64,000 nt of DNA from positions 62,001 to 126,000 of the forward strand of contig CANNFU010000007.1 in assembly GCA_947503965.1 (NCBI GenBank), read 5' to 3'. This DNA is from an uncultured Paracoccaceae bacterium. Its GTDB lineage: Bacteria > Pseudomonadota > Alphaproteobacteria > Rhodobacterales > Rhodobacteraceae. The position numbers were made by a program, and so were the translations under genes. Below are positions 30,772 through 43,637 of the stretch, piece by piece. The notes below the pieces were generated by a model. It did not search any database, had not been told where the DNA came from, and saw only the letters and a list, made by a program, of their open reading frames with translations. Within the stretch, counting starts at the first letter, position 1. Every line of letters begins with the position of its first letter.

Positions 30772-31626
30772 TCACAAGGTGGATTGAAACGGATCCCGCA
30801 GGTTCGCCAGCCGATAGGCACGCGGCGTGGTGCCGAACTGGCGGCGGAATAGCCGGTAGAAGTAGCTGGTATTCTCAAACCCGCAATCGTTGATCACATC
30901 ATCGATTGAGGTTTCATCGCTGCGCAACAGATGGGCGGCATATTCGATCCGTATGCGATTGATATATTGTGAAGGCGTCAACCCGGTGACGGTCTTGCAG
31001 GTCCGGCAGACATGTTCATGGCTACGCCCCGCCACCTTGATGAAACCGGGCGCGCCCTTGCGAAACACGTCGAGCGACTGTGCGGCGCTGCACGCTTCGG
31101 AAAACCAGTGCGGCGCATTGCCTTGGTCGCCGACACTGGCAAGTGCGACGCGATTGGTCAGAAACAACAGGAACTCTTCGATCCGGGCCAGTGATCTCTC
31201 CGAGGTCTGCAATTGCTGTGCCACATTCACCGCCCGCGTAAATCTGGCAGAGGCAAGGGTGTGCATCTCGGGCATCGCACCGCGCGCATCAAAAAATCGA
31301 CCCGCGATCGTATCGCGATAGCGCTGCGCCAGATGCGCTGCGGTCTCGATCCGGAACATCACGTTGATAATCTGGCACCCTGTTTTGCGATCCGCGCAAA
31401 ACGCATGCGCATCACCGGGGCGCAAAAACGCCAACTGTCCAGGTTCCAGATACTGCGTCACCCCGTTGATCCAATGCGCTGTCCGTCCGCTTTCGATCAG
31501 GAAAACCTCGAAATAATCATGATCATGCGCCTTTCGCGGAAATCGCTTTGCCAATCGCTTGCGTGCGAAATGAAACGCCTCATGCGCACCGATATAGTCA
31601 TCAATATGAAATGTGGTCTGATCCAT
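30772..31626 (-). CDS. AraC family transcriptional regulator of the mannoside-type operon
   Basis: A 284-residue regulator with an N-terminal cupin sensor (HDHDYFEVFLIESGRTAHWING, then LEPGQLAFLRPGDAHAF) and a C-terminal double HTH (TSIDDVINDCGFENTSYFYRLFRRQFGTTPRAYR). The cupin form usually senses a sugar or small metabolite. It is divergent from the dioxygenase/ABC/alpha-mannosidase run with 131 bases between starts, so it is the likely local regulator. The start at 31626 begins at the cupin domain but has a poor ribosome site; an ATG at 31695 is open in frame. Confidence 0.9.
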   Translation of the reverse strand: MDQTTFHIDDYIGAHEAFHFARKRLAKRFPRKAHDHDYFEVFLIESGRTAHWINGVTQYLEPGQLAFLRPGDAHAFCADRKTGCQIINVMFRIETAAHLAQRYRDTIAGRFFDARGAMPEMHTLASARFTRAVNVAQQLQTSERSLARIEEFLLFLTNRVALASVGDQGNAPHWFSEACSAAQSLDVFRKGAPGFIKVAGRSHEHVCRTCKTVTGLTPSQYINRIRIEYAAHLLRSDETSIDDVINDCGFENTSYFYRLFRRQFGTTPRAYRLANLRDPFQSTL

Positions 31627-31757
31627 GAAGCAAGATGAGCGAAAGAAACCCCGATAATTCTGATTGAATATCAAAACCGTACAATAAAATGTCAATCCTC
31701 GCTACTGACAGTCTGCAGGCACACTCTAGGCTGGTGAGCACTTTGGGGAGGACGCAC

Positions 31758-32582
31758 ATGTTGGTTGCGGCGCAAGATCTGAGCTTTGTGCCTGTCAGGA
31801 CCGCGAAGCCGCAAACGCTGACGCAGGCGCAGATTGCACATTACAACACGCATGGCTTCGTCCAGCCATTCGATGTGTTCTCGGCGCAAGAAATGACCGA
31901 ACTCCGCGCCTATATTGACGGTCTGATGGCCGATATGGGCCCAGACGGCGCCTATGGCATCAACTGCTATCAGGCACGCCTGTCCGGCCTGTGGGATATC
32001 GCGACCGATCCCCGCATCTTAGATCATGTGCAGGATATCATCGGCCCCGATATTCTGTGCTGGGCCAGTGCGATCCTGTCCAAAGCCCCGCATGACCCCA
32101 AGGCCGTGCCATGGCATCAGGATGCGGGCTTCTGGAAACTCAAACCGGCGCGCACCGTCACGGTTTGGTTGGCGATTGATGATGTGGACAAAACGAATTC
32201 CGCGATGCGCTTTATCCCCGGGACCCATGATCGTGGTCTGCTGGATATGCAATCCACCGGGGCAGAGGCCGTGTTTCACAAAGAAACCGCCGGGGCCGAG
32301 GCGCTCGGCGAACCCTTCACCAACAGCCTGAAAGCCGGACAGATATCGCTGCACGCGGATATGCTGGTGCATGGGTCCGAACCCAACCGCAGTGACCGCC
32401 GTCGTTGTGGCCTGACCCTGCGCTATTGCCCATCATCTGTGCAGATCACCGATCAAGACTGGGCCAACGGGGTCGAGGCGATCCTGTGTCGCGGCGACGC
32501 CGGCAACTGGCGCACCCACCCGCGCCCGGACAATAACGACATTACCAAAACATCCAGCCCGCATGTGGTGGGGAATAACTGA
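31758..32582 (+). CDS. phytanoyl-CoA dioxygenase (PhyH) family protein
   Basis: A 274-residue Fe(II)/2-oxoglutarate oxygenase. The metal triad is visible as His 120 and Asp 122 in WHQDAGFW and His 205 in LVHGSEPN, with an Arg downstream (R215 or R222) for 2-oxoglutarate. Residues MRFIPGTHDRG are typical of PhyH proteins. The family includes hydroxylases and demethylases of small molecules. It is the first gene of a seven-gene run ending in alpha-mannosidase, and its stop touches the next ATG. It may oxidise the aglycone or a substituent of the imported glycoside, which is an inference. The ATG at 31758 has a GGGGAGGA site. Confidence 0.9.
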   Translation: MLVAAQDLSFVPVRTAKPQTLTQAQIAHYNTHGFVQPFDVFSAQEMTELRAYIDGLMADMGPDGAYGINCYQARLSGLWDIATDPRILDHVQDIIGPDILCWASAILSKAPHDPKAVPWHQDAGFWKLKPARTVTVWLAIDDVDKTNSAMRFIPGTHDRGLLDMQSTGAEAVFHKETAGAEALGEPFTNSLKAGQISLHADMLVHGSEPNRSDRRRCGLTLRYCPSSVQITDQDWANGVEAILCRGDAGNWRTHPRPDNNDITKTSSPHVVGNN

Positions 32583-33263
32583 ATGCAAATCACCTGGTAC
32601 GGACATGCGGCCTTTGGTCTGACCCCGGAAAACGGGCCGCGGATCATCACCGATCCCTATACGCCCGAAGGTGTGGGATACGCACCAATCAGGGACAGTG
32701 CCGATCTGGTCATCATCTCATCGGATGACGACAGCGCCCATTGCCGGGCTGATCTGATCAGCGGCGAACCTGAAGTGGTGAACGCGCTGACCGTCGCACA
32801 ATCAGGCGGCAGTACCACAGCCTGCGGGGTCGACATCACCGCGATTGAGGCGGCGGAATGGGACCACCACCCCGAACACGAAGTGCCGGGTCAAAACGGG
32901 ATGTACCGCTTTGAACTGGACGGCATCAAGTTTGCCCATATGGGCGATGTCGGCAATCCACTGACCGACGCGCAACAGGCGTTCTTTGAAGACACCGATA
33001 TCCTGTTTGCGCTGGCGGGCGGCTACCTGACCCTGGAACTGCCGGACCTGATGGAGATGATCCACCGGACACGGCCCAAACTGGTGATCCCGATGCATTT
33101 CCGTACGTTGACCTATCGGCCACGCAACACGATGTGGATCGAAAGCTTTCTGAGCCATTTCAAGGACGAGGATGTGGATTTCGCCTTTGGTGCGACCACC
33201 GAACTTACGAAAAGGGATTTGCCAGACCGCACCCGCGTTCTGGTGATGGACTACGTCCGCTAG
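32583..33263 (+). CDS. metallo-beta-lactamase-fold protein with degraded metal motif
   Basis: A 226-residue protein with an UlaG/YtkL-like MBL layout: ITWYGHAAFGL at the start, GIKFAHMGDVGN and LVIPMHF later. Where HxHxDH should be (about residues 46-53) it reads SSDDDSAH, so two metal His are replaced by Asp, and only the last His, the later Asp (GDVG) and the His of PMHF remain. It could bind metal differently, catalyse another reaction or serve as a non-catalytic partner. Its ATG directly follows the oxygenase stop. Lactonase or phosphodiesterase activity is a guess from the fold. Confidence 0.8.
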   Translation: MQITWYGHAAFGLTPENGPRIITDPYTPEGVGYAPIRDSADLVIISSDDDSAHCRADLISGEPEVVNALTVAQSGGSTTACGVDITAIEAAEWDHHPEHEVPGQNGMYRFELDGIKFAHMGDVGNPLTDAQQAFFEDTDILFALAGGYLTLELPDLMEMIHRTRPKLVIPMHFRTLTYRPRNTMWIESFLSHFKDEDVDFAFGATTELTKRDLPDRTRVLVMDYVR

Positions 33264-33303
33264 CCGGGCAAGAGGGGCGCAAGCCTGCAACTGGGAGGAA
33301 GAC

Positions 33304-35028
33304 ATGAAATTCACCGCAACATTGCTGGCGTCCTCGGCGCTTGCGCTGATCGCTTCGGCAGCCACCGCACAGGATGTGGCCCGCGAAAACACGGTCATCT
33401 TTGATCTGGATCGGACTATTCAGGACCCTGAAAATTTCAACTGGATGACACCCGGCACCAAACGGATGCACGGCGCGCATCAAACCATGTGGGAGCCATT
33501 GTTCATCCTCAACTACGGCACGGGCGAACTGGACCCGTGGCTTGCCACCGGCTTTGAAAGCAACGCAGACAGCACCCGTTTCACGATCAGCCTGCGCGAA
33601 GGGGTGGAATGGTCAGATGGAGAGGCATTTGATGCCGATGACGTTATCTTCACCGTCAATATCGCCCTGACCGATGAAGAGATTTCCAGCCGCGAGGCAT
33701 CCACCATCCGCGCGCAGATCGCCAGTGTGACCAAGATTGATGATCTGACGGTTCAGTTCGACCTGAACGATCCGAATCCCCGCTTTATCGTCGAAAACTT
33801 CGGCGTGCGCATCTTTGGGTCATTCCTGATCATGCCCGAACATATCTGGAATGGCGAAAACCCCGCGACTTTTGCGTTTAATCCGCCCATCGGGACGGGG
33901 CCCTACACCTTCACCTCTGCCGCGTCGAACCGGGCGATCTGGGACCGCAACGATGATTGGTGGGGGGCAAAGACTGGGTTCATGGACCTGCCTGCACCGG
34001 AGCGTGTGATCTTCCTTGAATCAGGTGGCGAGGAAAGCCGCGCGCAATTGATGGCCTCCAACCAACTTGACGCGGCACAGAACGTCACCATCGGCACGTT
34101 CGAGGCGATCCAGGCGCAAAACCCCAACGTCATCGCATGGTATGCTGATTATCCCTATGCCGCCGCCGACCCTTGCGCGCGCCAGCTAGAGATCAACACC
34201 ACCATCGCGCCGTGGGACAATGCGAATATGCGCAAGGCCGTGGCCCATATCATCGACCGCAATCAGATCGTGAACATCGCCTATGAAGGTACGACAACCG
34301 CCAGCCAGACGATGTTTGCGCAATATGGCTCTATGGCGCCGTTCATCGATGCGGTGGTCGAAGCTGGCTACGGCCTGCCAGCCGCTGCCGATGTCGCCGC
34401 CGGTCAGGCACTGATCACGGCCGAGGGCTGGACCCGCGATGGCGACTATTACACCAAGGATGGCGAAACCCTGTCGGTGAATATCCACGTGAATTCTGCC
34501 TCGACCGAATACACGAGGACGATTGATGTGATCGTCGAACAGTTGCAACGCGCCGGGATCGACGCCCGCGCGGTGCCGGTGGAAAACGGAGTGTTCTGGG
34601 GTGAGGTGCTGCCATTTGGCGCATATGAGATGTCTTATAGCTGGCTGTCCTGCGGGTCCGTGAACGAACCATGGGCGTCAATGGGCCGCTACACGGTGGC
34701 GGACGTGGTGCCGGTGGGCGAACGCTCTCCCGGTTTCAACAACACGTCACGCTGGGATGGTCCGGCGGCTGAAACCTATTCCGCGATCATGGCGGATATC
34801 GCCGCGCGCCCATTGGGTGACGAGGCGATCCCCGGGCTGGTGGCCGAAGCCTATCAACATCTTGATGCGGAAATGCCATTCATCCCGCTTGTGCAGGCGG
34901 CGAAACTGCTGCCCATGAACGAAACCTATTGGACTGGCTGGCCCACGGCTGACAATTACTACAACCACCCGTTCTTTTGGTGGAACCACACGCATCAGAT
35001 CATTCACAATCTCGAACCTGCGCAATAG
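33304..35028 (+). CDS. ABC transporter substrate-binding protein, family 5
   Basis: A 574-residue periplasmic binding protein. The signal peptide is about residues 1-22 (LASSALALIASAATAQ). It has family 5 (DppA/OppA) features: WEPLFILNYGTGELDPWLATGFE, the cluster GVEWSDGEAFDADDVIFTV and GTGPYTFTSA. Family 5 proteins bind peptides, nickel or oligosaccharides; in this operon, next to alpha-mannosidase, a sugar-like ligand is likely. It has a strong GGGAGGA site. The downstream intergenic repeat may limit read-through so that this gene is made in excess. Confidence 0.92.
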   Translation: MKFTATLLASSALALIASAATAQDVARENTVIFDLDRTIQDPENFNWMTPGTKRMHGAHQTMWEPLFILNYGTGELDPWLATGFESNADSTRFTISLREGVEWSDGEAFDADDVIFTVNIALTDEEISSREASTIRAQIASVTKIDDLTVQFDLNDPNPRFIVENFGVRIFGSFLIMPEHIWNGENPATFAFNPPIGTGPYTFTSAASNRAIWDRNDDWWGAKTGFMDLPAPERVIFLESGGEESRAQLMASNQLDAAQNVTIGTFEAIQAQNPNVIAWYADYPYAAADPCARQLEINTTIAPWDNANMRKAVAHIIDRNQIVNIAYEGTTTASQTMFAQYGSMAPFIDAVVEAGYGLPAAADVAAGQALITAEGWTRDGDYYTKDGETLSVNIHVNSASTEYTRTIDVIVEQLQRAGIDARAVPVENGVFWGEVLPFGAYEMSYSWLSCGSVNEPWASMGRYTVADVVPVGERSPGFNNTSRWDGPAAETYSAIMADIAARPLGDEAIPGLVAEAYQHLDAEMPFIPLVQAAKLLPMNETYWTGWPTADNYYNHPFFWWNHTHQIIHNLEPAQ

Positions 35029-35040
35029 CGCATCATCACG

Positions 35041-35120
35041 TGAACCCGTCTCGGGCTTGACCCGGGACCTCTACCCGAGATTGACGTAGAGGCCCCGGAT
35101 CAGGTCCGGGGCGGGTCACC
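35041..35120. repeat. imperfect inverted repeat, alphaproteobacterial intergenic type
   Basis: Two diverged copies of a 23-base unit face each other: CGGGCTTGACCCGGGACCTC with TAC, and the reverse of the unit ending TCCGGGG. Their tips pair as CCTCTAC/GTAGAGG. The element sits between the binding-protein and permease genes. Repeats containing CGGGCTTGACCCGGGA are frequent between genes in Rhodobacterales and Rhizobiales. The large hairpin probably affects mRNA stability. Confidence 0.8.
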
Positions 35121-35141
35121 CCAAAGGCGGAACTTTTTTAC

Positions 35142-36152
35142 ATGGGACGCATCCCCCGCGCCTATCTGATCAACCGGCTGACGACACTGGTGCTGACGAT
35201 CCTGATCGCTGCCACGATCATCTGGATCATCCCGCGTCTGTCACCCGTTGATCCTGCCGAAATCGCACTTGGGCGCATGGCAGCAGGAGCCGGGTCTGTC
35301 GCGAATTCGGAAGAGATTTTGGCGCAACTCCGTGCGAATATGGGCATCGATCAGCCGCTGATCGTGCAGTATCTCAAATACATATCCGGCGCCCTGATGT
35401 TCGATTTCGGGCTGTCCACGGCTGCGTTCCCGACGCCGGTTTCTACCCTGATTCTCAACGCCTTACCGTGGACGCTGGGTCTGATGATCCTGTCGCTGAT
35501 CATCACATTCTTCATCGGCAACCTCTTGGGCGCGCTGATGGTCTGGGACCGGTCGCCGAAACTGGTCCGCGTCGCGATCCCGGCGGCGATGGTCTTTACC
35601 TCGATCCCGCCAATCCTGTCCGGTCTGTTGCTCATGTGGGTCTTCGCGGCCAAGCTGCAATGGTTCCCGCTGACAGGTGCCTACAGCATTTTCGTCGAAC
35701 CCGGCTGGACATGGGATTTCGTGACATCCGTGCTGCATCACGGCTTCCTTCCTGCCCTCTCTATCGTGATCGTCACTTTCGGTTTCTGGGCCCTCGGCAT
35801 GCGCGGTCTGATGATCACGGTGCAGGGAGAGGATTATGTAAAACTGGCCGAGGCCAAGGGGTTACGGCCCCGCTATATCCTTTATCGTTACATGATCCGC
35901 AACGCGATCCTGCCGCAGATCACTGCCTTTGCTTTAAAGATCGGGTTGCTGATCGCAGGGCAGGTGCTGGTCGAACGCATCTTTGCCTATAACGGCATGG
36001 GCAAGCTGTTGTATGACGCGATCCTGAACCAGGATTTCCCGGTCATTCAAGGCGTTAGCTATGTGATCATCCTGATGACGGCGCTCAGCGTCTTTCTTGT
36101 CGATCTGCTTTATCCGTTCATTGATCCGCGTATCAGACATGAGGCCGCGTGA
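35142..36152 (+). CDS. ABC transporter permease, DppB/OppB type
   Basis: A 336-residue integral membrane protein with about six helices. The family features are an N-terminal helix (TTLVLTILIAATIIWIIPRLSPVDP), a periplasmic loop and the EAA-type ATPase contact loop GEDYVKLAEAKGLRPRYILYRYMIRNA. It forms the import channel with the second permease. The last bases overlap a 9-bp hairpin around its stop codon. Confidence 0.94.
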   Translation: MGRIPRAYLINRLTTLVLTILIAATIIWIIPRLSPVDPAEIALGRMAAGAGSVANSEEILAQLRANMGIDQPLIVQYLKYISGALMFDFGLSTAAFPTPVSTLILNALPWTLGLMILSLIITFFIGNLLGALMVWDRSPKLVRVAIPAAMVFTSIPPILSGLLLMWVFAAKLQWFPLTGAYSIFVEPGWTWDFVTSVLHHGFLPALSIVIVTFGFWALGMRGLMITVQGEDYVKLAEAKGLRPRYILYRYMIRNAILPQITAFALKIGLLIAGQVLVERIFAYNGMGKLLYDAILNQDFPVIQGVSYVIILMTALSVFLVDLLYPFIDPRIRHEAA

Positions 36153-36211
36153 TATGATGCGCAGACATCATATCGCGCCGTACGCAAAGGCATATTGCAG
36201 CGCAATATGCC
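36151..36211. repeat. two tandem hairpins between permease genes
   Basis: The first is GATATGATG / CATCATATC (36151-36159, 36166-36174) and overlaps the stop codon of the first permease. The second is GGCATATTGC / GCAATATGCC (36189-36198, 36202-36211). Both are perfect. They probably act as mRNA stability elements or mark an insertion into the operon. There are no T tracts. Confidence 0.7.
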
Positions 36212-36251
36212 AGCGACACTCGTTTGCTTATCCAGACACAGGGGGTGCATC

Positions 36252-37175
36252 ATGACCGATACGCCGCTCACCCGTGCCGAAAAACGGCAGGCCAAACGGA
36301 TCAGGCGGTTCGATAACCCTTGGCTGAACCCCAAGCTGATTTGGGGTGCGGGGCTGCTGATTGCGATTGTGGCTATGGGTCTGCTGGGCCGTGTGTTCTG
36401 GGACCCTGATCTGGTGTTTACCGGTTCCGCACAGTTGAAGCTGCCACCCTTGGGCTTTGAGAATTTGCGCGGTCAGTCGGGCATAATGAGTAATCCGCTG
36501 GGCACGGATGGCGGGGGCCGCGATATGCTGGCGCTGATCATCATTGGTGCGCCGAACACATTGTTTGTGGGCCTGCTGGCCAGCCTGATCGGCATGTCGA
36601 TCGGGATTTTCCTTGGCTTTTCGGCGGGCTTTGTGGGCGGGCGCACGGATGATGTGATCCGGGTGCTGGCCGATGTGATGATCACCATCCCCCCACTGCT
36701 AATCCTTGTGGTGTTTCAGACCGCCTATGGAGATGTGTCCCTGACGATGATGGCGCTGCTCATCGCCGGTTTCGTGTGGCAGTCGCCCACGCGCCTGATC
36801 CGCGCGCAGGTACTGTCGATGAAGCAATCGGGCTATGTACAGATGGCGCAACTGTCGGGCGCATCGACTGGGCACATCATGTTCCGCGAGATGCTGCCGA
36901 ACCTTGTCCCCTACCTGTTCGGGTCGTTCATCGCCTCGGTCACGACATCGATTGTGACCGCAGTGGGGCTGGAGGTTCTGGGCCTTGGTCCGCAGCGCAT
37001 CCCGACCCTTGGTCGCACTATTTACGAGGCGATCAATGCAGGTGCGCTGATCCAGAACCTATGGTGGTGGTGGGGTATTCCGACGCTGCTATTGGGTATC
37101 ATCTTTATCGGATTGCTGCTGATCAATCTGGGGCTTGATGAGGTATCGAACCCACGTTTGCGGAGGTTGTCATAA
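36252..37175 (+). CDS. ABC transporter permease, DppC/OppC type
   Basis: A 307-residue permease. A cytoplasmic basic N-terminus (RAEKRQAKRIRRF) precedes the first helix (LIWGAGLLIAIVAMGLLG), and SNPLGTDGGGRDMLALIIIGAPNTLFVGLLASLIGMSIGIFLGF is typical of the C-type subunit. The EAA loop is near QSGYVQMAQLSGASTGHIMFREMLPN. Its stop and the next start share TAATG. It pairs with the DppB-like gene. The ATG at 36252 is preceded by GGGGGTG. Confidence 0.94.
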   Translation: MTDTPLTRAEKRQAKRIRRFDNPWLNPKLIWGAGLLIAIVAMGLLGRVFWDPDLVFTGSAQLKLPPLGFENLRGQSGIMSNPLGTDGGGRDMLALIIIGAPNTLFVGLLASLIGMSIGIFLGFSAGFVGGRTDDVIRVLADVMITIPPLLILVVFQTAYGDVSLTMMALLIAGFVWQSPTRLIRAQVLSMKQSGYVQMAQLSGASTGHIMFREMLPNLVPYLFGSFIASVTTSIVTAVGLEVLGLGPQRIPTLGRTIYEAINAGALIQNLWWWWGIPTLLLGIIFIGLLLINLGLDEVSNPRLRRLS

Positions 37176-38920
37176 TGGCGGATAAACCGGTTCTGACCCT
37201 GCGTGATCTGTCGATCGAATTTCCAACCCCGCAAGGCGTGGTGCAGGCGGTCAAGGCGCTGGACCTGACAATTGATCAAGGCCGCCGTGTCGGGTTCATC
37301 GGCGAAAGCGGATCGGGCAAGACGACCACCGCGCTGGCGGTGATGCAGATGCTGGCCGAGCCGGGGCGCGTATCCTCTGGCAAGATTGATCTGGCGGGGA
37401 CGGATGTGCTGGCGTTGGGTGAAGAAGACATGCGCAAGACGCGCCTTTCGCGTATCGCCTATATCCCGCAGGGCGCGATGAATTCGCTGAACCCTGTCAT
37501 GCGGGTCGAGCCGCAGTTGTGGGACGGGATCATCGCGCATGAAGGCAAGCTGGATCGCGCGGAGCTTAAGCGCCGCTCAGACAAGGCACTCGCCAGCGTC
37601 GGCTTGCCCGCCCACACCGCCGACCTTTTCCCGCATGAACTGTCAGGGGGGATGAAACAGCGCGTTTGTATCGCGCTGGGCATTATTCTGGACCCGGAAC
37701 TGATCATCGCGGACGAGCCGACATCGGCCCTCGATGTGGTGACACAGCGACAGGTAATGCAGACGCTGAAGGATATTCAGGCGCAGATCGGATCGGCCCT
37801 GATCTTGATCGGGCATGATATGGGATTGATGGCGCAGTCGGTGGATGAACTGGCGGTGCTGCGTAATGGGGAGCTGGTGGAACATGGCACCGTGCAGCAG
37901 ATCATCGAGAACCCGCAGCACCCCTATACCAAGGACCTGATTTCATCCGTGCCGCTGGTCGGCGGAGAGAGCTTTCTGAACCCCGACCGCGCCGCCCCCG
38001 CACCGCAGCGGGCAAGCGCAGAGCCGTTGCTGCGGTTCGAGAATGTGCGCAAGGATTACGGCGCGGTCACCGCGCTGCATCCAATGTCATTCACGTTACA
38101 GGGGGATACGCCGCAGATCATCTCCATCGTCGGTCAATCCGGGTCGGGCAAATCGACCATGGGGTCGATCATGCTGGGTTTTAACCCGCCATCACAAGGT
38201 CGCGTGTTGTATGAAGGGCAGGATGTGCAAAAGATGTCCGCCACGCAATCGCTGGATTTCCGCAAGAACGTGCAGGCGGTGTTTCAAGACCCTTACGCCT
38301 GCTTCAACCCGTTCTACCGGGTCAACCATGCGCTGAAATTCCCGTTCAAACGCTTTGGTCTGGCGCAAAGCGACGCGCATACGCTAAAGGCGATGGAAGA
38401 GGCGTGTGAGGCGGTGGGGTTGGACCCTGATCTGGTCCTGCCGCGTTATCCGCATCAGCTGTCGGGCGGCCAGCGCCAGCGGTTGATTGTCGCTCGCGCG
38501 CTGATGCTGTCACCAAAACTGCTGATCGCGGATGAGCCTGTGTCGATGGTCGATGCCTCGCTGCGCGCATCAATCCTGTCGAATATCTATGACCTGAAGG
38601 ATAAATTCGGCATCTCGATCCTGTATATCACGCATGATCTGGCGACCGCCTATCATGTCAGCGATTACGTGATGGTCCTGTTCAAGGGGCATGTGGTCGA
38701 GGCGGGACCGCCGAAAGAGGTGATCGGCGCGCCGCAGCACCCTTATACCAAGCTTTTGATCGACGCGATCCCCTGGCCTGATTTGCATCGGTCGTGGGGC
38801 GATGGTCGTGCCGACTGGGACCCGACAGCGCTAGAGGCCGAGGCGGCACGCACAGCCGCGGTCTATCGCGGTGACGTGGCGGGTTTTGATCTGGTGCGAC
38901 CGCAGGGCGCCTTTGCATGA
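37175..38920 (+). CDS. ABC transporter ATP-binding protein with two fused ATPase domains
   Basis: A 581-residue fusion of DppD- and DppF-like subunits. Domain 1 has Walker A GESGSGKTTTA, signature LSGGMKQR and Walker B LIIADEPTSALD. Domain 2 has GQSGSGKSTMG, LSGGQRQR and LLIADEPVSMVD. C-terminal family-5 tags (PQHPYTKDLISSVP and PQHPYTKLLIDAIP) follow each domain. In domain 2 the residue after the Walker B Pro is Val instead of Thr. It powers the importer and overlaps the alpha-mannosidase start by four bases. Confidence 0.95.
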   Translation: MADKPVLTLRDLSIEFPTPQGVVQAVKALDLTIDQGRRVGFIGESGSGKTTTALAVMQMLAEPGRVSSGKIDLAGTDVLALGEEDMRKTRLSRIAYIPQGAMNSLNPVMRVEPQLWDGIIAHEGKLDRAELKRRSDKALASVGLPAHTADLFPHELSGGMKQRVCIALGIILDPELIIADEPTSALDVVTQRQVMQTLKDIQAQIGSALILIGHDMGLMAQSVDELAVLRNGELVEHGTVQQIIENPQHPYTKDLISSVPLVGGESFLNPDRAAPAPQRASAEPLLRFENVRKDYGAVTALHPMSFTLQGDTPQIISIVGQSGSGKSTMGSIMLGFNPPSQGRVLYEGQDVQKMSATQSLDFRKNVQAVFQDPYACFNPFYRVNHALKFPFKRFGLAQSDAHTLKAMEEACEAVGLDPDLVLPRYPHQLSGGQRQRLIVARALMLSPKLLIADEPVSMVDASLRASILSNIYDLKDKFGISILYITHDLATAYHVSDYVMVLFKGHVVEAGPPKEVIGAPQHPYTKLLIDAIPWPDLHRSWGDGRADWDPTALEAEAARTAAVYRGDVAGFDLVRPQGAFA

Positions 38921-41900
38921 GCGGCAGATGGCCTTTCACAGCGGAAAAGATCGCGACCCGGCTTGATCTGATCGCGCCTTACATCTTTCGCTACAAACAG
39001 CCATTGCCGCATTTTCGCATGCTTCCGTTGAGCGGCGCGATGGTTGACGCGCCGATCTGTGCCGATCCGTCCGGTTGGGAAGAGATCCCGCATCAAAGCT
39101 ATTGGGGTCATGCCGACCTGAACTTTGTGATGAAAAGCCATTTCACCGTGCCCGAAAGCTGGGATGCGCAGAGCCTCGCCCTGCATCTGCCCCTTGGCGT
39201 GTTGGGCGATATCTTCAGCCACCCTGAGGCGTTGGTGCATATTGATACTGTGCCCATCGGGTCTGCGGATCGGTATCACCACACCATCCCGCTGGATGGT
39301 CATGTGCGGGACGGGCAGCACCACGTCGTATCGCTGCATGGCTGGACAGGACTGGCTGGCTGGCCGCCAGCCCCTGATAGCAAGGCAAAGCTGTTCATGG
39401 GAACGTCGACACTTGTCGTGCGTGATCTGGCCCTGATGGCGTTTCATAGACTGGCCAGCACCACGCTGGATGCGACAAGGATGCTGAACCCCGACAGCGC
39501 AGAGCATCAAGGGCTGCTGCGCGCGCTGGATCAGGCATTCCTGACACTGGATACCCGCGACCCGATAGGTGACGCATTTTATGACAGTGTCGATGCGGCC
39601 GATAGCGTACTTCGGACCGGGATCGCTGAGTCGGGTGCCCCTTTGGATGTAACCCTGCACGGCATTGGGCATGCGCATATGGATATTGCGTATCTTTGGC
39701 CGATCTCTCAGATACGGCTCAAGAATGCGCGGACCTATTCGAATGTCCTGCGCCTGATGGATGACGACCCCGATTATCACTTCTCCCATTCCCAACCGCA
39801 GCTTTATGCCTATACCGCGCAGGATTATCCGGCCTTGTTTGCCCGTATCAAGGATCGCGTGGCCGAGGGGCGCTGGGAAGTCATGGGCGGGATGTGGGTC
39901 GAACCAGATCTGAACATTCCGGGGCCAGAGGCGCTGGTGCGTCAGCTCATGCTAGGCCGCGATTATTATCGCAAGACCTTCGGGGATGTGGAAACCCCGG
40001 TTCTGTGGTTGCCGGATACGTTTGGTTTTCCCGGCCAAATCCCGCAACTGATGCGGCATGCGGGCCTGCCGTGGTTCGTGACCAACAAATTGAACTGGAA
40101 CCAGCGCAACCCGGTGCCGTGGTCCACCCACCATTGGGAAGGCATTGACGGTTCGCGCGTGCTGGCCCATGTGCTGACGACCCCGCGTGACGTGCAGTAT
40201 CTGCCGTTTCCGACAAATTACAAAAGCGATCTGAGCGCGTTTGAGGTCTTGGGGACGTGGACCAATGCACATGCGGGCGAAAAGGTGAAAGCGCTGCCGA
40301 TCTGTTTTGGATACGGCGATGGCGGCGGTGGCCCGACAGAAGAGCTGTTGGGCAAAGCGCACGCCTATGCGGCGATGCCGGGCATGCCGCAAATGCGGAT
40401 GAACACGGTGCGCGCCACGTTCGAACATTTTGAAGCACAGGCCGATGATCTGCCTGTCTGGCGTGGTGAGCATTACATGGAAGGTCATCGCGGTGTGTTC
40501 ACGTCGCAGGCCTGGATCAAACGTGCCAATCGCAAAGCCGAATGGGCCCTGCATGAGGCCGAGGCGCTGGCTGCGATGGCCGGGTTGGCGCCGGATCTGG
40601 ACGAAGCATGGCGGCTTTTGTGTCTCAACCAGTTTCACGACATCATCACCGGTACTTCGGTGCCTGAGGTGTTTGCAGAGGCCCGCAAGGACCATGCGCG
40701 GATCAGGGATCTGGCCGAGGCAGCAGCGTCGCAGGCGGCTGACGCGCTTTGTGTGGATGAGACCGCTGTGGCGAATACGTCGCCCGTGACCGGCCCCCGC
40801 CTTGCGTTCTTGCCGATGCCTGATCTGCCCGGCGGACAGACCGTGGATGGTGGCAGCCTTGTTTATTTCGATGCATTGCCATCCTATGCAGTAACCCCGC
40901 TTAGTGCGGCGACCAGCCCCGAAGGCATTTGCCGCTGCCGCCTGGACGCTGATGGTGCTGTTCTGGAAAGCGCGACCCTGCTTGTGCGGATCTGCAATGA
41001 CGGTCAGATCAGCTCTGTCTACGACAAACTGGCGGGTCGGGATGTGTTGCAGACGGGTGCATTGGGCAATCAGTTGCAGGCGTTCGAGGATCGCCCGATT
41101 TGCTGGGACGCTTGGGATATCGACCCGTCTTACGAAGACCGCCTTGAACTGGTCAATGGCCCGGTAGCATTCGAAGTTGTGGAAAATGGACCGCTGCGCG
41201 CAAGCCTGCGTTGGGTACAGAAATGGCGATCAAGCACCATTGTCCAGACTATCCGCCTGTCCGCCCATTCCAACCGGGTTGATTTTGAAACAGAGGTAGA
41301 CTGGCACGAAAGCCATACACTTTTAAAGGTTGCGTTCCCCACCAGTATCGACGCCACGGTGGCGCAATGTGATATCCAATGGGGTGTCATCGAACGCGCG
41401 ACCAAACGTGACACCCCATTTGACGGTGCCCGGTTCGAGGTGCCTGCGCAGAAATGGGTGCAGTTGGCTGATGAGACGTTGGCGGTCGCCGTGTTGAATG
41501 ATTGCAAATACGGATATGACATTCGCGATCAGACGATCCGGCTGACCCTGATCAAGTCATCCACGGCCCCTGACCCGCAGGCCGATCAGGGCGCACATGT
41601 CTTTACCTACAGCCTGTTGTCCATTGCCGATGCCCGGCGCGACCTGCTGGATCAGGCCGCCTATGATCTGAACGCGCCTTTGCGTGTTTTACCACCGCGT
41701 AATGGGGCGCAGCCGAAGCGCCCGTTTGTCGTCTCGGATATGTCGAACGTTATCATCGAGACGCTAAAACCTGCCGCTGACGGCGATGGTGTGATATTAC
41801 GGGCGTTTGAAGGGACGGGAACGGCAACAGAGGCGCGATTGCACTTCGCACGGGTGCCGCGCCGGGTGTTACGCGTAAACTTTCTTGAGGAAACCGTTGG

Positions 41901-41979
41901 TGATGTCGCCGTCGATGCTGATGGCGTTCACGTGACGTTGCGCCCGTTTGAAATTGTTTCACTACGCGTGGTTTTCTAG
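38917..41979 (+). CDS. alpha-mannosidase, glycoside hydrolase family 38
   Basis: A 1020-residue cytoplasmic GH38. The zinc motif is GHAHMDIAYLWP (His 254, Asp 256), the GGMWVEPDLNIPGPEALVRQ block is typical, and the catalytic Asp 367 lies in LWLPDTFGFPGQIPQL. The second zinc His is in NQFHDIITGTSVPEV. C-terminal beta-sandwich domains follow. No signal peptide is present, so the substrate must be imported first, which fits the coupled ABC importer. It removes alpha-linked mannose from small glycosides; mannosylglycerate, mannosides of glycolipids or N-glycan pieces are possible substrates. Its ATG overlaps the ATPase gene. A terminator ends the operon. Confidence 0.94.
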   Translation: MSGRWPFTAEKIATRLDLIAPYIFRYKQPLPHFRMLPLSGAMVDAPICADPSGWEEIPHQSYWGHADLNFVMKSHFTVPESWDAQSLALHLPLGVLGDIFSHPEALVHIDTVPIGSADRYHHTIPLDGHVRDGQHHVVSLHGWTGLAGWPPAPDSKAKLFMGTSTLVVRDLALMAFHRLASTTLDATRMLNPDSAEHQGLLRALDQAFLTLDTRDPIGDAFYDSVDAADSVLRTGIAESGAPLDVTLHGIGHAHMDIAYLWPISQIRLKNARTYSNVLRLMDDDPDYHFSHSQPQLYAYTAQDYPALFARIKDRVAEGRWEVMGGMWVEPDLNIPGPEALVRQLMLGRDYYRKTFGDVETPVLWLPDTFGFPGQIPQLMRHAGLPWFVTNKLNWNQRNPVPWSTHHWEGIDGSRVLAHVLTTPRDVQYLPFPTNYKSDLSAFEVLGTWTNAHAGEKVKALPICFGYGDGGGGPTEELLGKAHAYAAMPGMPQMRMNTVRATFEHFEAQADDLPVWRGEHYMEGHRGVFTSQAWIKRANRKAEWALHEAEALAAMAGLAPDLDEAWRLLCLNQFHDIITGTSVPEVFAEARKDHARIRDLAEAAASQAADALCVDETAVANTSPVTGPRLAFLPMPDLPGGQTVDGGSLVYFDALPSYAVTPLSAATSPEGICRCRLDADGAVLESATLLVRICNDGQISSVYDKLAGRDVLQTGALGNQLQAFEDRPICWDAWDIDPSYEDRLELVNGPVAFEVVENGPLRASLRWVQKWRSSTIVQTIRLSAHSNRVDFETEVDWHESHTLLKVAFPTSIDATVAQCDIQWGVIERATKRDTPFDGARFEVPAQKWVQLADETLAVAVLNDCKYGYDIRDQTIRLTLIKSSTAPDPQADQGAHVFTYSLLSIADARRDLLDQAAYDLNAPLRVLPPRNGAQPKRPFVVSDMSNVIIETLKPAADGDGVILRAFEGTGTATEARLHFARVPRRVLRVNFLEETVGDVAVDADGVHVTLRPFEIVSLRVVF

Positions 41980-42022: not shown

Positions 42023-42059
42023 AGGGCCTCGCGGCAATGCGCGAGGCCCTGGCTTTTTC
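42023..42059. terminator. strong bidirectional terminator
   Basis: An 11-bp perfect stem (AGGGCCTCGCG / CGCGAGGCCCT, loop GCAATG), with an A run on the left and GGCTTTTTCT on the right. It ends the alpha-mannosidase operon and the convergent MORN gene. Confidence 0.9.
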
Positions 42060-42070
42060 TTGAAGTCTGA

Positions 42071-43483
42071 TCAGTTGTCTGCGTTTGTTTCCGACACCAG
42101 TGCGCCGTCTGACCAGATGCCTGTGGTCTCTTGCCCGGTGGCATAGCGCATGGTGCCTTCGCCTTCACGGCGGCCGCGGACGAATGTGCCTTCATAGACG
42201 TCACCATTGGCATAGGTGGCAACACCCTGGCCATTGATCTCGCCCTCCAGCCATTCGCCGACATAGGTAAACCCGTCCGGCAAGGTGATTTCACCGGTGC
42301 CATTACGCTGACCGTTGGCAAATTCACCGACATAGATTGTTCCATCGGCATAAGTGGCGCGGCCCGTGCCGTTGCGCTGACCTTCGAACCACTGGCCTTC
42401 ATAGACGTAGCCGTCATCATACGTCATTTTGCCCTGACCGTGGTTCTTGGCGTTCAGGAACTCACCCTCGTAGACCAGACCGTTCACATATGTAGCGATC
42501 CCGGAGCCGTTGATGACGCCCATCTCCCAGTTGCCTTCGTAGCTGGACCCATCGGGATAGGTGATTGTTCCGGTGCCATGCGCCAGATCATCCATGAACG
42601 ATCCCACATAGACGGACCCGTCGGGATAGGTGACTTCACCATTGCCTTCGATCTGTCCTGCGACCCACGCGCCAGTATAAACGTATCCGTCAACGCCGCG
42701 GAAGGTGCCGGTGCCTTCGCGCCGGTCATTGGCAAACGTGCCTTCATACACATCGCCGTTGGAATACGTGACCTTGCCGTTTCCTTCGCGACGGCCTGCA
42801 ACCAGATCACCCTCGTAGATGTCTCCATTGGGCTGGGTCAGTGTGCCCACGCCCTGGATCTGTCCATCGACCCATTCGCCACTGTAAACCAGCCCGTCGG
42901 CCATGGTCAGCGTACCCGTGCCATCGCGTTCACCCGCTTTCAGCGTGCCTTCGTAGACTGCGCCATCGGGGTAGGTGATCGTGCCTTGCCCTTCCTTGGT
43001 GCCGTTGATCCATTCACCCTCGTATACATAGCCGCCGGGGCTGGTCATGATGCCGATGCCGTGATGCATCGCGTTGCGGAACTCGCCCTGATAGACGACG
43101 CCATTGGCATATTCCGCGACACCCTGACCGGTGATGTTGCCATCGACCCATTCGCCTTCGAACGTGCCGCCATCGGCGAACGTGATTCGACCCTGTCCCT
43201 CGGGCTTGCCTGCGACAAAACTGCCCTCGTAGACCGATCCGTTGGGGAAGGTGGCGACGCCTTCGCCGCGAATCTCACCCTCCATCCATTCGCCGGTGTA
43301 TTCATAGCCATTGGGAAGCCGGTATGTCCCTGTGCCGTGTTGCTTGCCGTCGAGGAATTCCCCTTCGTACACGCCACCGTCATCATATTGTTTTGTTTGG
43401 ACTGTTTGGGCCAGAGCGCCCGTCGCCAGACCGGCCGCCAGTACGGCGACTGCCATGCTTTTCGGTAATCCAAACGTCTTCAT
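42071..43483 (-). CDS. exported MORN-repeat protein
   Basis: A 470-residue protein: a signal peptide (about residues 1-25, MAVAVLAAGLATGALAQ), then 18 complete 23-residue MORN repeats and a partial one. Each is of the form DG-x-x-Y-x-G-x-W/F-x-x-G-x-x-x-G-x-G-x-x-T-x-P, filling almost all of the chain. Bacterial MORN proteins of this kind form long beta-strand scaffolds; the target (lipid, envelope or protein) is unknown. I chose the ATG at 43483 because its ribosome site (GGAGAGACGG) is better placed than that of the ATG at 43495. It shares a terminator with the convergent mannosidase gene. Confidence 0.92.
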   Translation of the reverse strand: MKTFGLPKSMAVAVLAAGLATGALAQTVQTKQYDDGGVYEGEFLDGKQHGTGTYRLPNGYEYTGEWMEGEIRGEGVATFPNGSVYEGSFVAGKPEGQGRITFADGGTFEGEWVDGNITGQGVAEYANGVVYQGEFRNAMHHGIGIMTSPGGYVYEGEWINGTKEGQGTITYPDGAVYEGTLKAGERDGTGTLTMADGLVYSGEWVDGQIQGVGTLTQPNGDIYEGDLVAGRREGNGKVTYSNGDVYEGTFANDRREGTGTFRGVDGYVYTGAWVAGQIEGNGEVTYPDGSVYVGSFMDDLAHGTGTITYPDGSSYEGNWEMGVINGSGIATYVNGLVYEGEFLNAKNHGQGKMTYDDGYVYEGQWFEGQRNGTGRATYADGTIYVGEFANGQRNGTGEITLPDGFTYVGEWLEGEINGQGVATYANGDVYEGTFVRGRREGEGTMRYATGQETTGIWSDGALVSETNADN

Positions 43484-43637
43484 CCGTCTCTCCATCTCTT
43501 CGGTCGCTGGCGCAGCTTAGGTGAGGTCCTAAACCCTGACAACTGTTAACGCTCGCACGGCGATGCCGATCTGGCGCTATCGTCTTTCCCCCAGGCGTCA
43601 TTCTGATACATCCATCGCAGTGCATTGGGACAAAACT

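Follow-up and report, generated by a model that had tools for sequence, protein, structure and literature searches.

A conserved operon of Rhodobacteraceae proposed to import and oxidatively demethylate alpha-mannosides

Gene content and layout of the operon

The operon described here lies in a window of 64,000 nucleotides from an uncultured Paracoccaceae bacterium (GenBank assembly GCA_947503965.1, contig CANNFU010000007.1, positions 62,001 to 126,000), whose genome comprises 4.65 Mb in 47 contigs. It is a candidate system for the uptake of alpha-mannosides and the removal of a non-sugar group from them. Eight open reading frames (ORF) were confirmed between window positions 30772 and 41979, seven of them co-directed and facing a divergent regulator of the AraC family with a cupin N-terminal half. 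A preliminary description, made from the sequence alone, had given this arrangement, and the ORF and Pfam matches bear it out family by family: AraC/cupin, PhyH, Lactamase_B_3, SBP_bac_5, two BPD_transp_1, a double ABC_tran and four GH38 parts. An acetyl-CoA synthetase gene flanks the unit on one side and a MORN-repeat gene on the other (names assigned by eye).

The regulator occupies 30772..31626 on the minus strand; its ORF opens at 31695 and the likely start, judged by eye, is the ATG at 31626. All other genes are on the plus strand. The first, at 31758..32582, encodes a PhyH-type Fe(II)/2-oxoglutarate (2OG) oxygenase, PhyH1, whose likely start (again by eye) is the ATG at 31758, behind GGGGAGGA. 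The overlap previously assumed between these two genes is not needed, since the likely starts put about 130 bp between them. A protein of the metallo-beta-lactamase (MBL) fold follows at 32583..33263, then a family-5 solute-binding protein at 33304..35028 with a signal peptide by eye, and two permeases of the ATP-binding cassette (ABC) type, assigned by Pfam and NCBIfam: PermB (OppB/DppB type, 35142..36152) and PermC (OppC/DppC type, 36252..37175, the ORF opening at TTG 36195). The same models identify a fused double ABC ATPase at 37175..38920, and a GH38 alpha-mannosidase at 38917..41979 completes the series. Most joints had been described as overlapping or touching, which holds for three of the six: the PhyH1 and MBL genes touch, PermC and the ATPase gene overlap by 1 base, and the ATPase and GH38 genes by 4 bases. 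The other three have gaps, of 40 bases between the MBL and binding-protein genes, 113 bases between the latter and PermB, and about 99 bases between PermB and PermC if PermC starts at the ATG at 36252. A GC-rich palindromic element, perhaps a stabiliser of the repetitive extragenic palindromic type, lies at 35040-35125 between the binding-protein and PermB genes. The operon is closed on the plus strand by a terminator-like stem (42023..42050) of 11 pairs, 9 of them G-C, with a T-rich tail after it; this is the strongest plus-strand site among the 15 terminator-like sites listed (8.9 ± 3.1 expected by shuffling). Just behind, on the opposite strand, 42071-43495 encodes the MORN-repeat-like protein of 474 residues (by eye).

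The GH38 protein exceeds the Pfam cut-offs in all four GH38 parts and is the sole GH38 match in the genome. Its best Protein Data Bank (PDB) matches are Ams1 and other large alpha-mannosidases (7vqo/6lz1/7ufs, E 2e-120), it is thus of the Ams1/MAN2C1 type, and no signal peptide was seen by eye. The motifs HAHMD, LPDTFG and HD, read by eye, are taken to hold the catalytic residues. Mannosylglycerate hydrolase MngB was considered and rejected as an identity (83 bits against an NCBIfam cut-off of 1138; PDB matches of Ams1 type). Enzymes of the Ams1/MAN2C1 type trim oligosaccharides of their own cell, whereas the present GH38 is part of an uptake operon. The binding protein is nearest to oligosaccharide binders: its best match is the Thermotoga maritima protein deposited as mannoside-binding (4pfu/5hm4, E 5e-38), which is likewise of family 5, followed by a chitin-oligosaccharide binder (1zty group, E 3e-33). 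Nickel binders are reached at E 7e-24 and dipeptide binders at about 1e-11 to 1e-12. The T. maritima system presumably differs in being specific for beta-mannosides and in having neither oxygenase nor MBL partners.

Between the regulator and PhyH1, an operator-like element (31670..31695, plus strand) is conserved across the ten closest of 35 loci, chosen for an AraC identity of at least 70%. Its pattern matches once in the whole genome when up to 3 mismatches are allowed, and the reversed control does not match at all. Within the limits of this pattern, the single match suggests that the AraC protein is a local regulator with one target.

Conservation and distribution of the unit

Orthologous loci (L numbers below; G numbers denote genomes) were counted in 34 distinct cases besides the window's own. 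Left out of this count are three operons cut by contig ends (L003, L013, which has a second PhyH, and L016), two GH38 loci at contig edges (L009, L025) and the duplicates L182, L188, L189 and L190; L180 and L181, where the contig stops within the GH38 gene, were scored as having it. Of the 34 loci, 31 have all eight genes in one common order, the ATPase being matched in two pieces in L008 and L121, and the AraC gene is divergent in 34/34. The exceptions are L118/L175, where the contig ends before GH38, L121, whose PhyH gene is unlinked and lies elsewhere in the genome with an adjoining AraC gene (L120), and L128, where the MBL gene is reduced to a 54-residue match. Apart from these last two cases, scattered orthologues, named beforehand as the outcome that would speak against the unit, were not found. 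No flanking gene family is common to more than a few loci.

A survey of 295 genomes of the family points the same way. GH38 matches occur in 24 of them, PhyH orthologues (E <1e-100) in 21 and MBL orthologues (at least 56% identity) in 21. When the genome of the window is left out, 23 GH38 and 20 PhyH carriers remain among 294, and 18 genomes hold both; the MBL gene is found in 18 of the 20 PhyH carriers and GH38 in 17 of the 20 MBL carriers. The hypergeometric probabilities of these co-occurrences, not corrected for kinship, range from 6.7e-20 to 1.4e-24. Together with the constant gene order, they mark the unit as more than chance: the eight-gene set is a real, conserved unit, and the co-conservation that the preliminary description proposed to look for in Rhodobacterales is present. 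Five family genomes have GH38 matches and lack the PhyH of the operon, as parts only in G001, G180 and G256 and as more distant matches in G077 and G132. Presence is patchy, since another species of the same genus (G294) has neither a GH38 match nor a close PhyH.

Most loci belong to Rhodobacteraceae; L017 comes from Roseibium and L003 from a metagenome-assembled genome of Rhizobiaceae. When 385 genomes sampled from the class were searched for MBL, 42 gave a match, the best besides the window at 27% identity; this sample leaves room for operons elsewhere, such as that of Roseibium. Spread by plasmids was considered and rejected, since the plasmid collection contains no PhyH match at 1e-40. Averaged over 30-31 loci, identity to the window is highest for PermB (86%), PermC (83%), the binding protein (81%) and the MBL protein (78%), followed by the ATPase (76%), PhyH1 (70%), GH38 (58%) and AraC (56%).

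Two loci of Chloroflexota (L019, L020) contain the importer genes (binding protein, permeases and ATPases) together with GH38, and neither PhyH nor MBL was matched within the stretch examined. These loci suggest that PhyH and MBL were added later to an older importer-mannosidase unit. They also fit the notion that the operon serves plain alpha-mannoside uptake, with the oxygenase and MBL protein as passengers; this is very improbable given that 18/20 PhyH genomes also have GH38 and that the position of the genes is fixed across 31/34 loci.

Apparent remnants of the unit were seen at L126:7138-9146, where fragments of the binding-protein gene and of GH38, the latter with an internal stop, adjoin each other, at L123:7435-8200 and at L127:11322-12878; the partial GH38 of G001 and G256 may be counted among them. 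At L119:7018-7899, a lone PhyH1 orthologue (60-63%) adjoins an ABC transporter of another type, and the same genome holds an MBL relative (46%) elsewhere (L173). At L035:2751-4211, in Chloroflexota (Anaerolineae), a locus with a GH38 relative (45%) has a sulfatase gene on the opposite strand at a distance of about 6 kb.

The oxygenases and the MBL-fold protein

PhyH1 scores 104 bits against a cut-off of 22 for PF05721, and H120, D122, H205 and R214-R216 (roles assigned by eye) are invariant in 20/20 aligned sequences; the score, the HxD...H triad and the 2OG-binding arginine place it among the PhyH-type Fe(II)/2OG oxygenases. Its structure model (mean predicted local distance difference test score 86) matches ThoJ, SyrB2 and PHYH. 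An extra gene stands between the binding-protein and PermB genes in 12 of the 34 loci, and in 12/12 it encodes an oxygenase: a second PhyH (PhyH2) in 11 and a cytochrome P450 in one (L014). Pfam scans covered four of the eleven PhyH2; the other seven were recognised by tblastn, with identities of at least 70%. Where the slot is empty the space is too short for a gene (at most 326 bases, in L005). PhyH2 is separate from PhyH1 on a small tree and about 22% identical to it, so that a recent duplication is not the source. In the importer tree, PhyH2 occurs here and there among the deeper branches and is absent from the close group of the window, and L014 and its sister L015, with an empty slot, are placed among PhyH2 carriers. 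This placement fits a slot that would have been lost and refilled over time.

The P450 of L014 is 43% identical to PDB 6g5o (E 7.7e-92; next match 5e-40), which, with 6g5q, is presumed to be a 6-O-methyl-galactose demethylase. Relatives at 41-49% identity occur in 5 of the 295 family genomes, always in sugar clusters: in L195-L198 a GH31 gene is the immediate neighbour of the P450 gene, and a GH13-like gene and a conserved ABC importer are close by; in L194 the P450 gene adjoins a 2Fe-2S ferredoxin, an AraC gene and a sugar-type binding protein. These neighbourhoods link the P450 family to sugars in this group. The clusters themselves (L195:9321-12535, L196:24-3025, L197:6821-10042, L198:9402-12608 and L194:9691-11119) are candidates for the use of methylated glucosides. 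A P450 beside the operon in L005/L190 was not counted, its nearest matches being vitamin D hydroxylase and other P450s rather than 6g5o.

The preliminary description had listed several non-sugar groups that might be removed before or after demannosylation. Removal of such a group fits the co-conservation, and the list can be narrowed: a slot filled only by oxygenases, one of them like 6g5o, favours an O-methyl ether, and the sulfatases present in two loci point to possible sulfation. O-methyl is thus the best candidate suggested by the gene content. N-demethylation, or removal of a choline- or betaine-type group from a charged mannoside, would also be chemistry for this fold, which includes proline, leucine and ectoine hydroxylases among the PDB matches. 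It is highly improbable, since it would not account for a P450 like 6g5o in that slot and, by eye and with no search made, no choline, betaine or methylamine gene was recognised among the flanking ORF starts of 24 loci.

Precedents for the favoured O-demethylation come from two known systems. According to PMC12709175, several PF05721 enzymes demethylate the 2'-O-methyl ribose of nucleosides with release of formaldehyde, an activity that its authors call widespread in the family. These PHYHD1/FJS enzymes share with PhyH1 the family, the triad and action on a sugar methyl ether, but their substrates are free nucleosides and PhyH1 is only a distant relative of PHYHD1 (E 8e-9). In porphyran utilisation (Reisky et al. 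2018, as described in PMC10033563), a P450 converts 6-O-methyl-galactose to the sugar and formaldehyde. The proposed likeness is that a methoxy sugar of algae is O-demethylated by oxidation within a sugar-utilisation cluster, and it extends to the related P450 of L014; the present operon differs in having a 2OG enzyme of the PhyH family as its conserved oxygenase, a family-5 ABC importer and a GH38 without signal peptide. A sugar O-demethylase function of PhyH1 is inferred from the oxygenase slot together with the PF05721 precedents.

The MBL protein belongs to the fold family (Lactamase_B_3; nearest solved relative TM0207). The usual metal motif of the zinc metallo-beta-lactamase fold, HxHxDH, is replaced in 28/28 aligned copies by SS-D/A-DD-S/D-AH (SSDDDSAH in the window), while His/Asp positions further along the sequence (HMGD, HFRTL) are invariant across the 28. 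Speculatively, the protein is perhaps a mono-metal hydrolase. In an alternative scheme, the oxygenase would hydroxylate the sugar or aglycone, or oxidise the ring, without ether cleavage, and the MBL protein would act, in the manner of UlaG-like lactonases, to open a sugar lactone. This draws on the fold family, on the relation to TM0207, on the conservation of the MBL protein (mean identity to the window 77.6% against 57.7% for GH38) and on a xylose-isomerase-like TIM-barrel gene added in 3/34 loci (L021, L178, L179). It is rated unlikely: the metal motif is altered in every aligned copy, and the 54-residue remnant in L128 indicates that the MBL protein is not strictly needed. MBL relatives away from operons (L169-L174) gave by eye no clue to a substrate in their neighbourhoods. 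Among them, a sister group (about 46%) with another altered motif, SSSNDDFHDN, was noted at L171:8857-9537, L172:9694-10374 and L173:8589-9269.

Proposed pathway and substrate

Taking gene content and conservation together, the case is evenly balanced that the operon serves the uptake and oxidative O-demethylation of O-methylated, in some species sulfated, alpha-manno-oligosaccharides. In the proposed pathway, the AraC protein would sense the sugar and drive the local promoter, and the binding protein and ABC importer would bring the sugar chain in intact. O-methyl groups on the alpha-manno-oligosaccharides would block GH38. In the cytosol, PhyH1, elsewhere joined by PhyH2 or the CYP236A-like P450, would oxidise the O-methyl ethers of mannose to a hemiacetal that breaks down to the free sugar and formaldehyde. 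The latter may be cleared by the general glutathione route, and GH38 would then trim the unblocked alpha-mannose residues. Both enzymes of that route, glutathione formaldehyde dehydrogenase and S-formylglutathione hydrolase, score over cut-off in the genome at places away from the operon; each also exceeds the cut-off in 3 of 14 control genomes. Intact import and cytosolic cleavage, as the preliminary description had it, are partly supported, fitting the co-conservation, the solved relatives of the binding protein and the type of GH38.

A more specific proposition is advanced with somewhat greater reserve. PhyH-family 2OG oxygenases, rather than P450s, would strip the methyl ethers of imported oligomannosides for the cytosolic GH38. 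The altered MBL protein, possibly mono-metal, would assist, and further oxygenases in the slot and sulfatases elsewhere in the unit would match the decoration of the glycan. With one sulfatase query, a sulfatase was found in 2/34 operons, between the MBL and binding-protein genes on the opposite strand in L175 and directly behind GH38 on the same strand in L184.

Several points weigh against the demethylation of methylated oligomannosides. The P450 occurs in only 1/34 loci, which is thin. The nearest solved relatives of PhyH1 are ThoJ and SyrB2 (about 27%), which we take to be natural-product oxygenases. The best PDB match of PhyH2 is human PHYH, an enzyme inactive on 2'-O-methyl nucleosides in PMC12709175. 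Several matches of the binding protein (E 1e-28 to 1e-30) are deposited as peptide binders, and simple demethylation leaves no place for the MBL protein. No type I mannose-6-phosphate isomerase, GH92 or GH76 match was found in the genome, so that the bacterium may need other organisms to release the oligosaccharides and a different route to use mannose. In addition, paralogues of the PhyH1 family (34-36%) adjoin HD-domain proteins of phosphonate type, and Euglena N-glycans carry aminoethylphosphonyl mannose, according to PMC12507850 and PMC8678454.

These last observations bear on the main specific rival, namely that PhyH1 removes a phosphonate, for example aminoethylphosphonate on mannose, by hydroxylating the carbon next to phosphorus, with the MBL protein replacing the HD partner. 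PhnY/TmpA systems hydroxylate the carbon adjoining phosphorus, and the HD proteins resemble the Phn-HD, TmpB and PhnZ models, with scores short of the cut-off in the two pairs that were scanned and the remaining pairs judged by eye. This explanation is considered quite improbable. PhyH1 forms a clade of its own (support 1.000) apart from the HD-partnered group in a 21-sequence tree, the Pfam scan found no HD gene in the operon, and PhyH1 falls outside the PhnY/TmpA group, with 33 bits against a cut-off of 500 for the methylphosphonate hydroxylase model. It also leaves the P450 unexplained. The pair of PhyH-type oxygenase and HD protein recurs on its own account (L163:9802-11270, L160:8033-9495; also L154, L159, L164 and L168), below the cut-offs of known phosphonate models, and is possibly a new phosphonate pair.

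With regard to the source of methylated alpha-mannosides, coccolith polysaccharide is presumed to contain methylated mannose. Its backing is weak: one paper used 3-O- and 6-O-methyl-mannose as standards and ranks mannose first in abundance among the sugars of the main coccolith polysaccharide. Microalgal N-glycans are a proposed example of such a source. PMC12507850, PMC8678454 and PMC8107433 report O-methyl-mannose in them, although methylated mannose was not seen in the diatom species studied in PMC8678454 itself, which is a further point against. Among the matches listed in the open-access literature there was no description of such a cassette or pathway, nor of a bacterial route for the removal of O-methyl-mannose.

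If the proposed demethylation is true, the PhyH family would gain a role in the breakdown of capped algal sugars. It would explain the use of such sugars by some Rhodobacteraceae and would provide enzymes for the mapping of methylated glycans.

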